Positions 36 through 42,055 of a stretch of DNA of 42,055 bases are shown here, in pieces (position 1 is the stretch's first letter; every line of letters starts with the position of its first letter). The notes under the pieces were generated by a model, which saw only the letters and a program-made list of their open reading frames with translations, did no database searches and was not told the DNA's origin. The stretch is from an uncultured Mycoplasmataceae bacterium (lineage in GTDB: Bacteria > Bacillota_I > Bacilli_A > Mycoplasmatales > Hepatoplasmataceae), in contig CAMZOE010000015.1 in assembly GCA_947330515.1 (NCBI GenBank), positions 1 through 42,055 of the forward strand. Reading direction: 5' to 3'. Made by a program: the position numbers and the translations under genes.

Positions 36-1868
36 ATGAATGATGATTTTTTAAATGAAGATATCATGAATGGTGCTAAAATCGCCATTGTTGGTGTCGG
101 AGGTGGAGGAAACAACGCCGTAAATAAGATGGTAGAAGATGATATGAAGGGGTTAACCTTTATTATTGCTAATACAGATATTCAAGTGCTTAAAACTTCA
201 CCAATTGAAAAACGTATAGTTTTAGGGAAAGATTTAACTAAAGGTCTTGGTGCTGGTGCAAATCCAGATATTGGAGAAAAATCAGCAAACGATTCAATTG
301 AAGAAATTAGAAAAGCTGTTGAAGGATACGATTTAGTTTTTGTTGCTGCAGGAATGGGTGGTGGAACTGGAACAGGTGCTGCTCCTATTATTGCTAAAGT
401 TGCCAAAGATACAGGTGCATTAGTAGTTGGAATAGTAACTACACCATTCGTTTTCGAAGGAAAAAGAAGAATGCAAAATGCTGTTATTGGTTTAGAAGAA
501 TTCAAAAAAAATGTTGATTCAATCATTATCATTTCAAATGATCGTTTAAAAATGGAGTTAGGAACAATTCCTTTAATGGAATCATTTCAATATTCAGATG
601 CAATTTTAAAACAAGCGGTTCGTACAATTACTGATTTAATTAATTCACACTCATTAATTAATTTAGATTTTGCTGACGTTAGAACTGTAATTGAACAACA
701 AGGACTTGCTCTAATTGGAGTAGGACGTTCAAGTAGTGAAGATAAAGCTAAAGAAGCAGCACTTGCTGCAATTAATTCACCAATTTTAGAATCTTCTATT
801 GAAGGTGCTAAAAATGCTATTGTTAATATTGCCGGTTCTTCAACTGGACTTTCAATTGAACAAGCAAATACAGCAATTGAAACAATTAAAGAAAATGCCG
901 GAGATGGATTAGATATTATTTTTGGAGTTACTATTAATGATGCACTTGAAGAAGAAATTGTTGTTTCAGTAATTGCTACTGGACTATCAGTTACTAAATC
1001 AGAACGTATTAAAATTGCTAGAATTAATTCTGAAAATGGAAAAGAAGTTTCAAAATATAGAAAAGTAACAAGACAATTAAATGAAGTACGTATGTACGAT
1101 GAAGTTACTGAAGAGTTTGAAGCAATAAGAGACGAAAAAACAAAAAGTATTGCAGAAAAACAAACTAAAAAACTTGAACAATTAAAGCAACAAGCAGCTA
1201 ATCAAAAAAATGCTGATAAAGAAAAAAAATCTTACGATCCAGCAAATATTGATTCATACAAAGTAAATATGAATGATTCACAAAAAAACAAAGAACAATC
1301 AACTAGTGAAGTAGTTCATCAAGATAAAGCTGCAAACTCATTAGAGAATCAAAAAACTAGTTATGTTGATTTAGCACAAAAACATAATGAACCGGTTCAA
1401 GGACAAGGTCAATCATATCAAAATCCTCAACAACCAGTTCAAGGACAAGGTCAATCATATCAAAATCCTCAACAACCAGTTCAAGGACAAGGTCAATCAT
1501 ATCAAAATCCTCAACAACCAGTTCAAGGACAATATCAACAACAACCAGTTCAAGGACAAGGTCAATCATATCAAAATCCTCAACAACCAGTTCAAGGACA
1601 ATATCAACAACAACCAGTTCAAGGACAATATCAACAACAACCAGTTCAAGGACAATATCAACAACAACCAGTTCAAGGACAATATCAACAACCAGTTCAA
1701 GGACAAGATCAACAACTAGTTCAAGAGCAATATCAAAAACCGGTTCAAGAAGAATCTAAAAATTTTGGAAATAATGATGATGATTATATTGAAGATTCCT
1801 TTACTAATGAGAGATTATTAGAGTTTGATTTATTCGATGATGATACAAAAGAATTTGAGGTATTTTAA
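36..1868 (+). CDS. ftsZ: Cell division protein FtsZ with long Gln-rich repeat tail
   Basis: Tubulin-like GTPase that polymerises into the cytokinetic ring at midcell. The N-terminal glycine-rich nucleotide site GVGGGGNNAV is near residue 22, and the tubulin/FtsZ signature GGGTGTG is near residues 108-114. The globular core runs to about residue 330. It is followed by a charged Lys/Gln/Glu-rich linker and, at about residues 453-568, a tandem array of PVQGQ-containing units. A short acidic C-terminal end (NERLLEFDLFDDD) may be the conserved partner-binding tail. At 610 aa it is far longer than the usual 320-400 aa, and all of the excess lies in the linker. The ATG follows an AAGGAG ribosome-binding site. 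sepF starts one base after the stop, so the two are probably cotranscribed. The core assignment is certain; the role of the repeats is unknown. Confidence 0.97.
   Translation: MNDDFLNEDIMNGAKIAIVGVGGGGNNAVNKMVEDDMKGLTFIIANTDIQVLKTSPIEKRIVLGKDLTKGLGAGANPDIGEKSANDSIEEIRKAVEGYDLVFVAAGMGGGTGTGAAPIIAKVAKDTGALVVGIVTTPFVFEGKRRMQNAVIGLEEFKKNVDSIIIISNDRLKMELGTIPLMESFQYSDAILKQAVRTITDLINSHSLINLDFADVRTVIEQQGLALIGVGRSSSEDKAKEAALAAINSPILESSIEGAKNAIVNIAGSSTGLSIEQANTAIETIKENAGDGLDIIFGVTINDALEEEIVVSVIATGLSVTKSERIKIARINSENGKEVSKYRKVTRQLNEVRMYDEVTEEFEAIRDEKTKSIAEKQTKKLEQLKQQAANQKNADKEKKSYDPANIDSYKVNMNDSQKNKEQSTSEVVHQDKAANSLENQKTSYVDLAQKHNEPVQGQGQSYQNPQQPVQGQGQSYQNPQQPVQGQGQSYQNPQQPVQGQYQQQPVQGQGQSYQNPQQPVQGQYQQQPVQGQYQQQPVQGQYQQQPVQGQYQQPVQGQDQQLVQEQYQKPVQEESKNFGNNDDDYIEDSFTNERLLEFDLFDDDTKEFEVF
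1392..1745 (+). repeat. In-frame tandem repeats coding the FtsZ Q-rich tail
   Basis: The array has four 42-bp units (coding PVQGQGQSYQNPQQ) and four 27-bp units (coding PVQGQYQQQ). They are followed by three degenerate 24-bp units and a partial one. The order is 42,42,42,27,42,27,27,27,24,24,24. All unit lengths are multiples of three, so copy-number changes would keep the frame. Units are nearly identical at the DNA level, which suggests recent slippage or recombination. The repeats also create spurious open frames on both strands. Confidence 0.95.
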
Positions 1869-1869
1869 T

Positions 1870-2472
1870 ATGGCATTTTGAACAAATTTTAAAAGAAAAA
1901 TGAAAAACTTTTTCACTGTTCCAGAAGAAACAAATGAAAATAGAAATAAACCTTTAATGATTGAAGGTGAAGAAGTAACTAAGGTTTCTGATTTAAAAGT
2001 AACAGCCCCAGCCATAGTTGAAGAGGTTAAACCTATGGAAGCTAAACAACCTGTAAATGAATCAGAAAAAACTTATGTAAAAGAAGTTGTTGCTAAAAGT
2101 AAACCAATAGATGAAGTTAATGAAGATATGATGACTAGTGAGCAAGAAGTCGAATCTGAAAAAGATAAACTTACAAAACAACGTGCGATCTTAATTAAAC
2201 CACGTTATTCTAAAGAAGCAAAAATTATTGCCCAAAGACTTATGGAAAATAATATTGTTATCCTTAATCTTGAAGAAGTTTCTCCTACAGATTTTGAAAG
2301 AATTCGTGATTTTGTTTCTGGAACTTTATTTTCTCTAAAAGGTGATTATCGTAAAGTAAGTAAAAATGTTGCAGTTTTATTACCATCTCAAAAAGTTGAT
2401 GAAGATTATTTAGTTTTAGTTCTTAAAAAAGTTCATCAATTAATTGAAAAAAATAGAAATCAACAACAATAA
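1870..2472 (+). CDS. sepF: SepF-like cell division protein
   Basis: SepF is a cytoplasmic protein that binds the FtsZ C-terminal tail and, in Firmicutes, tethers the ring to the membrane in parallel with FtsA. The C-terminal half (about residues 105-190) has the SepF fold pattern: QRAILIKPRYSKEAKIIAQ, a helix ending in VILNLEEV, then DFERIRDFVSG and a VAVLLP strand. The N-terminal 100 residues are acidic and poorly conserved. The chosen start is ATG 1870, one base after ftsZ. The third codon after it is UGA (Trp), so starting at 1900 would lose MAFWTNFKRK, a short amphipathic basic segment like the membrane-binding N-terminus of known SepF proteins. It is 200 aa. Position directly after ftsZ supports the call. 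Confidence 0.85.
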
Positions 2473-15685: not shown

Positions 15686-16984
15686 ATGGCTGAAAAAACA
15701 AAACATGATTATAAGAAAAAACTTGATTACAAGAAAAAATTTGATTATGTTTCAAAACTTTCAAGAGATGAAATCATTGAAAGTTATAAAGATTTATTGT
15801 TATATGCTTCAAATATAGAAAAACTTCTTGAACAAGGAAATTTTGAAATAAAAGAACAAACAGAAATTAAACAACATAATGATGGGATTTTTATTAATAA
15901 TAGAAAATTAAAAAAAATCAAAGATTCATTAACAACTAGAAATGAATTGTTAAAAACATCAAAAGCAGAAATTGTTAAACTAAGAAATAAAATTAGTGCT
16001 TTAAAATTTGAAAATCAAAATTTAAGGAAAACAAACAAAAAACTTTCAGAAAACAATGATAATTATTCTCATTTATTCGAAAAAATTAAATTGATGGAAA
16101 AAAATGAAAATAAGAAAAAACAAAAAGAAATGTTTTCTGAAATGATTAATAATGATCTAAAAAAAGAAAATATTTCGTTAAAAGAGGAAGTGTTTAAACT
16201 TGGATTAGAAAAAAATGAGCTAAAAACTAAAAAAGATGAGTTAGAAACTAAAAAAATTGAGTTAGAAACTAAAAAAAATACTTTAGAAGAAGAAAAAAAA
16301 CTTTTAGAAGAAGACAAAAATCTTTTAGTTAAAGAAAAAAATACTTTAGAAACAACATATAAAACTAAAATAAAACTTTTAAATGAAAAAGTTTTAGAAT
16401 CTAAAAAGGAACATGAACATGTTCAAGTTAATTCTGATGATATGGCAATTATTAAAGAATTAACAAAAATCTTACAGGCTTCAATGTTTGACGAAGACTT
16501 AATTAAACGTTTACAAAAAGCAATTAAGATTGAATCAAATTACAAACAAAAAGTTCAAGAACTTGAAAAAGAATTGAATGATTATCAAAAAAACAGAGAA
16601 TCAATTCAAAAAAACCCTGCTGATACAACAAGTGAAGAAGTTGTTAGCAAAGAATTTATTTCATTCTTGAAAAATATACTACCGAAAGTTGATTTATTTA
16701 GAAGATCAATTCTTTCTGGAAAAGATAGTCAAGAAGAGGTAGTAAAAAATTGAGTGCGAGGTTTCGAAATGGTTTATAATCAAATGAGAGAAACTATTTT
16801 AGCATCAAAAATTGAAATTATAGAACCTAACTATGGAGATAAATTTGATCACCGTCTTCATGAAACTATTGTTTTAGGTGAAACCGATGATTTAAATAAA
16901 GATGAAATCATTGAATTACAAGAAAGTGGTTTTAGATATAAAAATATCTTATTATCACCAGCCAAAGTTAAAGTTCAAAAATAA
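15686..16984 (+). CDS. grpE: GrpE nucleotide exchange factor with long coiled-coil extension (GrpE1)
   Basis: Nucleotide exchange factor for DnaK. The C-terminal 110 residues carry the GrpE signature: the helix ISFLKNILPKVDLFRRSI, then WVRGFEMVYNQM, then EPNYGDKFDHRLHETIVL and RYKNILLSPAKVKV. TGA at 16751 is Trp and joins the two parts into 432 aa, over twice the usual 190-200. The extra N-terminal 300 residues are highly charged Lys/Glu/Asn-rich helix, with seven consecutive exact heptads at residues 178-226. The ATG follows GAAAGGG. dnaK follows after 18 bp, giving grpE-dnaK-dnaJ. Confidence 0.92.
16217..16363 (+). repeat. Seven 21-bp repeats coding exact heptads in GrpE1
   Basis: Consecutive units ELKTKKD, ELETKKI, ELETKKN, TLEEEKK, LLEEDKN, LLVKEKN and TLETTYK. 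Leu at position 2 and charged residues elsewhere predict a continuous parallel coiled coil. Units 1-3 are nearly identical at the DNA level, so the array probably grew by tandem duplication. Confidence 0.85.
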
Positions 16985-18829
<1,845 letters not shown>

Positions 18830-18834
18830 TAAGT

Positions 18835-19998
18835 ATGGCAAAAAAAGATTATTACGAAGTATTGGGAGTGCCAAAAACTGCAACTCCACAAGAAATTAAA
18901 AAAGCATATCGAAAATTAGCGATGAAGTATCATCCTGATGTAAATAAAGAAAAAAGTGCTGAAGAACTTTTTAAAGAAGTTAATGAAGCTTATGAAACTT
19001 TATCTGATGAAGAAAAAAGAGGAATTTATGATCGTTTTGGTCATGAAGGAGTTTCAAATATGAACCAAGGTGGTGGCTTTAATCAAGGTGGCTTCTCTTT
19101 TGAAGACCTAAAAAACTTTAATTTTGGTGGCTTTGGTAATATCTTTGAAGATCTATTTGGTGGCGGAGGTGCTCCAGGAGGAGGCTTTGGTGGCCAAGGT
19201 AACTTCAGAAGCAATCCTAATCAACCACAACGTGGAAAAGATATTTTTCTAGAAAAAAAAATAACCTTTGAAGAAGCATATAAAGGGTTTGAATATGTTG
19301 AAACAATTAATATTTCTAAAAGATGTTCAGTCTGTGAAGGAAAAGGATATGAAAACGAAAAAGATGTTCATATTTGTGAAGAATGTAGCGGAACAGGAAA
19401 AACTATTTCAATTCAAAACTCTTTATTTGGTAAAGTTCAAGTTCAAAAAACATGTAAAAAATGTAATGGTTCTGGAAAAATAATCAAAACAGCATGTTCA
19501 CAATGTCGAGGAAAAAAATTAGAAGTAAATAAAACTTCTTTAAATATCAAGGTTCCTGCAGGGATTATTGATCAATCTGAAATTCGTTTTCCTAAAAAAG
19601 CTCATGATGGAATTAATAATGGTCCATCCGGTGATATTTATGTTAGAATTTTAGTAAAAAATCATCGTTACTTTAAGCGTATTAAAAATGATTTATATAT
19701 AAAATATCCATTACCTTTAATTAAGTTAATTATCGGTGGTAAGTTTTCTTTACCATTATTTGGAAGTATTATTGAATTTAATATTCCTGAATTATCAACC
19801 CCTGATACTGTTATTAGAATTAAAAATAAAGGTTTTAAAGTTATTAATCGTGAAGTTCGTGGAGATTTATATATTGAATTAAAAGGTGAATTACCGAAAA
19901 AAATTTCTTCATCAACGAAAAAGAAATTAAATGATCTTGTTAAAGATTTAGATACTAAAAGCGATGTTGATTTTATTAAAAAAGTAAGCAAAGCTTAA
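18835..19998 (+). CDS. dnaJ: Chaperone DnaJ (type I)
   Basis: Hsp40 that delivers substrates to DnaK and stimulates its ATPase. The J domain has HPD near residue 33 (KYHPDVNKE). A Gly/Phe-rich region covers about residues 80-125. Four zinc-finger repeats CxxCxGxG follow ([32 protein letters not shown]), then the C-terminal beta domains. It is 387 aa. No Shine-Dalgarno; it lies 5 bp after dnaK and is probably translationally coupled. It is the only J protein in the window, although there are two DnaKs. Confidence 0.97.
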
Positions 19999-20017
19999 CA
20001 AAAGAAGGAGTCAAAGA

Positions 20018-32368: not shown

Positions 32369-33910
32369 ATGGATAAAAAGAATACAAAAGAAAAAATTCT
32401 TTCTGCACTGATTAAAACAGAAAGTTATTTGAAAAGTGTTGTACCAAAAGAAACAAAAAATGAGTATTATAGTAGCGATGAAGAAAATGATGAAATTCAA
32501 GAATTTGAAAAAACTCAAAAATCTGAAAATAATAGTTACAAAGAAACTGATTTTAAAGAAACATATAACGAAGAAGAATATGAAACTGAATCTAATTATG
32601 AAGAAGCTAATTATGAAGAATATAATTATGAAGAAGAATATAGTGAACTTGAAAATACTATAGAAGAAAATTTTTTAAGTGAAGAAGATGAAAATTATTT
32701 AAAAGAATATGATTTAATGGAAAAAACAACTGATAGTGAAGTAAAGATTGAAATTGAAGATTTACAATCATGAGAAAAGAGTGGAGAAGGAGAGACAATC
32801 ATTAAAAAAGAAAATAAAAAACCGATTTCTTTAAATAACATAGTTATTAAAGATAATCCAAAAAAACAAAAAAATCATTCTAAGAGAACAAATATTGAAG
32901 ATGAATTAATTATTGATAAAAATTTACAATCAAAAACAAAAAATGTTGAAACGGAGACTTCTGAAAAAAGAAATCCTTCAGTAAATTCAATAAAAATTAA
33001 AGAAAAATCTTCAACAAAAGATATTGAAAGTTCAAATGAACAAAAACCTAAAATTAAAATAGTTGATTCACCAAGTCGTAAAACAAAAGAAAAATCTCAT
33101 AATGGAGTTAAAAACGAAAACTTTAACAAATCAAAATTAGATGAAAAAAATCAAACAAAATCTAATCAAGAAATAGATTCTTCTCCAGAATTTACTGTTG
33201 AATTTAAACAAATGGTAGATTCAAAAACAGAAAATGTAAATTTAAATAATGATCTAATAGAAAAACAAAGTCAACAAGAAGAAGCCCAAAAAGTTAAAGA
33301 AAATTATGAAAAAGATATCAAAAATATTGATATTACTTTTTTAACTCATAATCAATTTGTTACAACAGTTAAAAACGTTTCTAAATTAGAAGATAAAATT
33401 TATTTAATGGGAAAAAGAATTAGATTTTTAACTACTGTTTCTGAAAAAGCTGCCGAAGAAAATAAAATTTTAAAACAAAAATCACTTTCGTTACTTTCAA
33501 ATTATGAAAACGATAAAAAACGTTTATCTGAAGAAAATGAAAAATTTAAACAAACTGCTGTTAAAAAAGTAATGAGTGATATGATTGGAACTATTGATAT
33601 TTTTGAAATTGCTTTAAAATCTAAAACAACAGATCCTGCAATGGAACAATGAATTACTGGTTTTAGAATGATTTATAATAACATTTTTAATGTTCTAGAA
33701 GCAAATGGAGTTAAAAAAATTGAAATTAAACCTGGAGATGATCCTGATTATAATCTTCATCAAACAATAGAATTAGTTGATAGCGATGACATTCCTAAAG
33801 GAAAAATTGTTGATATTAGACAACCGGGTTATTTATTTAATGGTAAACTTCTTCGTGTTGCCTCTGTAACTGTTTCAAATGGTCCTAAAAAAGACAAAGA
33901 AGAAAGTTAA
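32369..33910 (+). CDS. Second GrpE-type exchange factor with giant low-complexity N-terminus (GrpE2)
   Basis: 513 aa. The GrpE part is C-terminal (about residues 360-505): long helix NYENDKKRLSEENEKFKQ, MSDMIGTIDIFEIAL, the Trp-containing segment WITGFRMIYNNIFNVLEANG, the GrpE-type turn DPDYNLHQTIEL (HQ-T in place of HEA), and GYLFNGKLLRVASVTVS. TGA at 32774 and 33651 are Trp. The first 300 residues are low-complexity: an acidic Tyr/Glu/Asn block (residues about 60-110, YNEEEYETESNYEEANYEE) and then Lys/Ser/Asn-rich sequence without a fold. It ends 181 bp before dnaK2. Its partner is inferred to be DnaK2. Confidence 0.85.
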
Positions 33911-33923
33911 TAAAACTATTTAA

Positions 33924-33960
33924 ATTATTACTTGATTAATCAAGCAATAATAGTATTTTT
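33924..33960 (+). terminator. Hairpin between grpE2 and dnaK2
   Basis: The core CTTGATTAATCAAG (33931-33944) is a perfect 14-bp palindrome, extended by ATTATT / AATAAT with one mismatched position, followed by TAGTATTTTT. It ends the grpE2 transcript or attenuates it. A further 9-bp inverted pair TAGTATTTT / AAAATACTA (33951-33959, 33978-33986) overlaps its end. Confidence 0.6.
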
Positions 33961-34004
33961 GAAGTAAATGTATAATTAAAATACTAATTAATCTAATGGT
34001 TATA

Positions 34005-34021
34005 GTATAATTTAGTTATAC
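34005..34021 (+). promoter_or_regulatory. dnaK2 -10 region inside a small inverted repeat
   Basis: TATAAT at 34006-34011 lies within GTATAA-TTTAG-TTATAC (34005-34021). It is about 80 bp before the dnaK2 ATG, which has AAAGGAG at good spacing. dnaK2 thus appears to have its own promoter. Confidence 0.45.
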
Positions 34022-34070
34022 ATTTTTTATATAATGAATTTTGTTTATTACACTTGTTGTAAACATTTAA

Positions 34071-36566
<2,496 letters not shown>

Positions 36567-41682: not shown

Positions 41683-42055
41683 TCTTGTAAACTGCCATAG
41701 TAAAAGTGGACAATCAAAATATTTTAAAATATCTGATTTCTGTACTCTACAGGAGTCAGATATTTTAAGTTAATTTGAAATCTTTTATTATTATAATCTT
41801 TAATTGCAAAATTAATTTGTTTTTTCATTTCTTTGAATGAAGAATTAAAATAATCTTTTAAATATTCTTGTTTTAAAATAGAAAAGAAATATTCAATCGG
41901 ACGGTTGTCTAGTGAATTTCCTTTTCTACTCATAGATTGAATAAAATTTAATTTTCCTTTAATTTTTTTCATTTGAAATGAATTATATTGAATACCATGA
42001 TCTGAATGGAAAATTGTTTTTTTAAACTATTATTTAATTTTTTTGCAGAATTATT
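41683..42055 (-). mobile_element. IS3-family-like insertion element, right part beyond the window
   Basis: Minus-strand transposase 3' end with the likely element terminus just after parE, near TGTAAACTGCCATAGTAAAAG (about 41685). The boundary is a guess, as the other end and any target duplication lie outside the window. Confidence 0.6.
41724..42055 (-). pseudogene. IS3-type DDE transposase, 3' part, apparently frameshifted
   Basis: C-terminal integrase core: the second catalytic Asp is in HSDHGIQYNS, and the glutamate motif appears as SLDNRPIEYFFSILKQE, followed by YNNKRFQINLKYLTPVEYRNQIF, the usual end. The frame read leftwards from the window edge (ending NNSLKK) and the frame coding HSDHG differ by one base, at a run of seven A's (about 42018-42026). 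The HSDHG frame meets a stop just upstream. So the gene has an indel, a sequencing error, or a slip site. Only the 3' third is visible. Confidence 0.75.

Follow-up and report, generated by a model that had tools for sequence, protein, structure and literature searches.

An in-frame minisatellite array in the C-terminal linker of FtsZ from a Hepatoplasmataceae bacterium

How an essential division gene comes to carry a tandem DNA array, and whether such an array alters what the encoded FtsZ does, are the questions raised by the first gene on contig C15 of an uncultured Hepatoplasmataceae bacterium. Members of this family are gut Mollicutes of crustaceans, and among the genomes analysed the genus of the source organism is represented by a single draft (832,759 bp in 85 contigs, 84% complete). 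The window analysed here is the whole stretch of 42,055 nucleotides of contig C15, in which TGA is read as Trp; from its start the gene order is ftsZ, then sepF, then ileS. The features on which the analysis turns are the following.

36 to 1868, forward strand: ftsZ, 610 aa, complete under code 4, with the GTPase core (residues 13-317) intact
989 to 1391, forward strand: proximal linker, approximately residues 319-452, K/E-rich by composition
1392 to 1751, forward strand: in-frame tandem array, PVQGQ(GQSYQNPQQ / YQQQ / YQQ), 11 full units and a 12-bp partial unit
1752 to 1865, forward strand: acidic, aromatic C-terminal tail, net charge -11 by composition, compared among 29 tails
1870 to 2472, forward strand: sepF, 200 aa, with the SepF domain PF04472 at residues 108-173

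The gene at 36-1868 encodes the standard cell-division FtsZ of its Hepatoplasmataceae source. Its product matches Pfam PF00091 (Tubulin) and PF12327 (FtsZ_C) above the Pfam cut-offs and scores 373.9 bits against the TIGR00065 equivalog (cut-off 295.2), which bears out the assignment to FtsZ made in the first-pass annotation. The GTPase signature GGGTGTG (residues 108-114) and the T7 loop N-x-D-x-x-D (NLDFAD, residues 209-214) are both conserved in the FtsZ alignment, and 53 distinct solved-structure sequences, nearly all of them FtsZ, are matched by the protein. An AlphaFold model built on a 13-sequence alignment is confident in the core (pLDDT mostly 70-97) and predicts a helix at residues 356-396 (pLDDT about 77-80 at its centre), the rest of the proximal linker being mostly below 50; the array has a pLDDT of about 40 without secondary structure, and segments 320-365 and 397-610 lie almost wholly below 50. 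The region following the core measures 293 aa, which puts this linker above the 150 disordered residues beyond the core that define a long one. No second FtsZ was found in the source genome (draft, 84% complete).

Unit decomposition in the complete ftsZ gene confirmed the claim that the array is in frame and lies between the GTPase core and the C-terminal tail. The span of 1392-1868 first assigned to it was too long, the array itself ending at 1751 and 1752-1865 being the acidic tail. Near-identical units of 42, 27 and 24 bp had been described, and these are indeed present in four, four and three copies, nearly all identical in DNA, in the order 42, 42, 42, 27, 42, 27, 27, 27, 24, 24, 24 bp, followed by the 12-bp partial unit. 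At the protein level this corresponds to three copies of PVQGQGQSYQNPQQ, PVQGQYQQQ, another PVQGQGQSYQNPQQ, three copies of PVQGQYQQQ, and then PVQGQYQQ, PVQGQDQQ, LVQEQYQK and a partial PVQE. The Gln/Pro/Gly character also holds, with 56 Q, 15 P and 14 G in 120 residues; Q and N together reach 43 per 80 residues, and ten tyrosines are spaced 9-16 residues apart. The copies are near-identical at synonymous positions as well, the changes clustering at the 3' end apart from a single CCA-to-CCG difference at the 5' end, and the longest exact repeat inside the array is 96 bp. The Tandem Repeats Finder (TRF) score is 318. When the codons of the array were shuffled 1000 times, the score had a median of 73 and never exceeded 201, and 1000 such shuffles of the whole of ftsZ gave at most 108. 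With head-to-tail, near-identical tandem units of 10-60 bp beyond chance expectation, the array is a minisatellite. A search of the genome for the unit as a possible donor returned only the copies in ftsZ, no such array was found in the viral contigs searched, and a literature search on tandem repeats in ftsZ returned nothing relevant. An overlapping open frame in the +1 frame (1387-1719) and one on the minus strand (1371-1715) were rejected as by-products of the repetitive coding stretch.

Comparison with related genomes addressed how common such a linker is. The region after the core measures 64-145 aa in 28 relatives from the family and the order, compared with 293 aa in the source FtsZ, and none of these 28 carries such an array. 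A survey of open frames across the order was used solely for picking further candidates, because its lengths suggest that TGA was taken for a stop codon in some genomes; the FtsZ frame of genome G028, for example, measures 432 in the survey and 577 under code 4. The candidates inspected for their long open frames (G163, G137, G042 and G028) carry no array in FtsZ, and their longest tails after the core, of 197 and 227 aa, are acidic and equally free of it. Among the matches listed, G163 has the only other FtsZ whose open frame measures about 600 aa, and was rejected as a parallel case: much of its length is N-terminal read-through, with a tail of 197 aa and no array. Every relative examined lacks the array, so a clear homologue shared by all of them is not seen, and within the examined part of the order such an array is exceptional in FtsZ. 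Two further observations concern FtsZ copies elsewhere in the order. One of several FtsZ copies in genome G105 (L161, G105:C4) carries, within the open frame and before the core, a K/T-rich stretch resembling KKTTTKKT, and a second, divergent FtsZ paralog, 29-40% identical to the source FtsZ and with short or different tails, is present in Hepatoplasma and in two of the three genomes of genus g5 (L112, 424-1491; L118, 8064-9134; L134, 8429-9658; L135, 2010-3122).

The picture is different when the array is set against its own genome. In 369 kb sampled from the source genome there are 23 tandem arrays with a TRF score of at least 150, several of them short-unit arrays in disordered protein ends, such as NQENL/NQENM in 21 copies, ETYIDSYDE in three, and the repeats that close the second DnaK. 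Sampled parts of G002, G004 and G009 contain 0-2.5 such arrays per 100 kb and that of G003 contains 7.0, mainly long-unit repeat proteins. Arrays of short units are thus a common feature of disordered protein ends in the source genome, and the one in ftsZ is an instance of this genome-wide tendency; the suggestion that it is unusual in an essential cytoskeletal gene stands for FtsZ and is weakened by the genome as a whole. Likewise, the unit lengths are multiples of three, as had been pointed out, yet any coding array that survives has this property: the period is divisible by three in all 40 coding arrays with a score of at least 80 in the same 369 kb (and in 14 of 37 noncoding arrays with a score of at least 50). 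Two paralogous membrane proteins, 51% identical, have unlike arrays at the same, N-terminal, end (L102, 979-2379; L156, 2283-3461), showing fast array turnover. MutS was not found in the source genome (draft, 84% complete), but because mismatch repair acts on small loops we do not invoke its absence for changes of 24-42 bp units. Other features of this genome were also recorded. It encodes three DnaK paralogs (window 15686-20000 and 32369-36566; G000:C43:20570-22066), where most relatives in the family have a single full-length copy; two grpE-dnaK pairs lie in the window, and the second DnaK (824 aa) ends in TolA-like KAEEAKA repeats. A transposase fragment with an integrase core (rve_2/rve_3) lies at the contig end (window 41724-41972, reverse strand), and a CRISPR array at L141 (6539-7583) repeats a sequence of about 36 bp (GTCTGAATCTATTAACATTTGTGACTGAAATGAAAC) 16 times, once every 66 bp. 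Assemblies from the foregut of Rimicaris shrimp measure 0.48-0.83 Mb, with 36-bp CRISPR repeats in one MAG (PMC9636832).

What the lengthened linker connects to has to be considered at both of its ends. The source FtsZ lacks the terminal D-x-P-x-F-L-R peptide, a usual and not a defining feature of FtsZ, and ends in ERLLEFDLFDDDTKEFEVF. Among the family relatives examined the canonical end peptide is kept in G001 alone (DDDLPFFLR), and G001 is also the sole relative with FtsA over the cut-off, in three tandem matches (L081, L083, L084; G001:C13). FtsA over the cut-off was not found in the rest of the family, whose members likewise lack the canonical FtsZ end peptide, nor was FtsA found in the source genome (draft, 84% complete). 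The sepF gene adjoins ftsZ in the source genome and lies closely downstream of it in the relatives. SepF open frames in the family are mostly 100-118 aa long; that of the source genome has 200 aa, with an N-terminal segment exceeding that of most family members by about 90 aa. G001 combines a long SepF of 259 aa with a short FtsZ linker and FtsA.

The explanation that we favour, and regard as likely, is that a minisatellite expanded in this lineage alone, within a disordered linker that tolerates it, and that FtsZ is still tethered to SepF. Slippage or unequal recombination would recently have duplicated a unit of 24-42 bp in frame and so lengthened the disordered C-terminal linker. We infer the recent origin from the near-identity of the units, synonymous sites included, and the degenerate units at the 3' end are what recent duplication is expected to leave. 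The array is a Q-rich, tyrosine-spaced and nearly uncharged insert of about 120 residues, lying between the predicted charged helix segment and the acidic tail; it would be tolerated because the sequence of the linker is little constrained, and its unit lengths would be multiples of three because changes that break the frame of an essential gene are removed. The non-canonical tail most likely still binds the SepF encoded by the next gene, which would anchor the filaments to the membrane without FtsA, in a scheme running from core filament to long spacer, acidic and aromatic tail, SepF and membrane. The array itself is probably a passive flexible spacer. A simple chain estimate (0.6 nm multiplied by the square root of N) has one 14-residue unit moving the mean span from 10.2 to 10.5 nm, and since this is only about 2%, single copy changes should be nearly neutral. 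Against a wholly passive role, a tail of 290 aa is not automatically neutral given the limits reported for linker length, which suggests that some adaptation is likely, and the long N-terminal segment of SepF could mean co-adaptation. The even spacing of the tyrosines could have been selected or could be a simple consequence of duplication.

This last point bears on the possibility that the array is a functional sticker-and-spacer domain, whose Q/N-richness and regular tyrosines drive condensation or bundling of FtsZ. The composition (up to 43 Q+N per 80 residues, ten tyrosines 9-16 residues apart) would suit such a domain, and the FtsZ of A. tumefaciens, with a linker of about 240 aa, condenses and forms fewer foci when the linker is truncated (PMC13170164). 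Tandem duplication alone, however, yields regular spacing, unrelated proteins of the same genome have gained similar arrays of very different composition, and the array is not conserved in relatives, so that we consider this role unlikely. The array may alternatively be real with a copy number that is an artefact of short-read assembly, as a fragmented draft of 85 contigs and an exact internal repeat of 96 bp, beyond the span of a small assembly k-mer, might lead one to suspect; this we judge quite unlikely, because the frame is intact, the unit is found at one place only, and the variants are irregularly ordered (a 27-bp unit among 42-bp units) where simple collapse would tend toward uniform units.

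Two other proposals give the length itself a purpose. The FtsZ and SepF halves of the membrane tether could have been lengthened jointly, for instance for division with SepF only or for an unusual cell shape, in keeping with the extra disordered-looking sequence in both proteins of a genome in which FtsA was not found. It is very improbable that they were, since the other family members without FtsA keep a short FtsZ linker and a short SepF, and in G001, where FtsA is present, the long SepF goes with a short FtsZ linker, so that the lengths do not track. Near-identical units in perfect frame are also the condition for frequent in-frame changes in copy number, and the array could be a contingency locus whose copy number changes from cell to cell or strain to strain and thereby tunes how far the filament lies from the membrane; given the small shift in mean span per unit (10.2 to 10.5 nm by the chain estimate) and the conservation of frame as a general property of coding arrays in this genome, we find this very unlikely. 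There is similarly little to be expected of the broader proposition that a minisatellite-born, length-variable, Q-rich and tyrosine-spaced domain drives condensation or sets ring spacing, with a division parameter evolving by copy number, and we hold it to be very unlikely.

A lineage-specific expansion in a tolerant linker can be set beside what is known of FtsZ linkers, for which flexibility, charge and length are important and the sequence has little effect; E. coli is viable with linkers of 43-95 aa and division of B. subtilis is disturbed by linkers of more than 100 aa (PMC9939409). Long natural linkers are found in Caulobacter (>170 aa) and Agrobacterium (~240 aa), the latter promoting condensates, and the source FtsZ resembles these Alphaproteobacteria in its very long disordered segment from core to end (PMC13170164). 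It differs from them in that its length comes partly from a near-perfect DNA tandem array, in the missing canonical end peptide, and in belonging to a mollicute whose relatives have short linkers. With Ca. Hepatoplasma and Ca. Tyloplasma (G003, G004, G005) it shares the family, the ftsZ-sepF order, the failure to find FtsA and a similar non-canonical acidic/hydrophobic tail (e.g., DIFSGLSLLDDE in those relatives), whereas their region after the core measures 71-72 aa without repeats and the Hepatoplasma genomes add a second FtsZ without the usual tail. As in the coding minisatellites of Mollicutes and the giant repeat ORFs of Hepatoplasmataceae, in-frame repeats expand independently per lineage; unlike those giant ORFs (units of 11-195 aa, possible host-interaction proteins), the array described here lies in a conserved division gene (PMC10928387).

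Long disordered FtsZ tails are already known, and it is the array that was found in the FtsZ of none of the relatives examined. Division is affected by how long the FtsZ linker is, and model bacteria tolerate a limited range of lengths. A linker that a minisatellite has extended, in a family whose other members have short ones, is a natural experiment on the linker tolerance of the division ring. The array also illustrates how essential proteins come by longer disordered tails in genomes that readily undergo tandem duplication.
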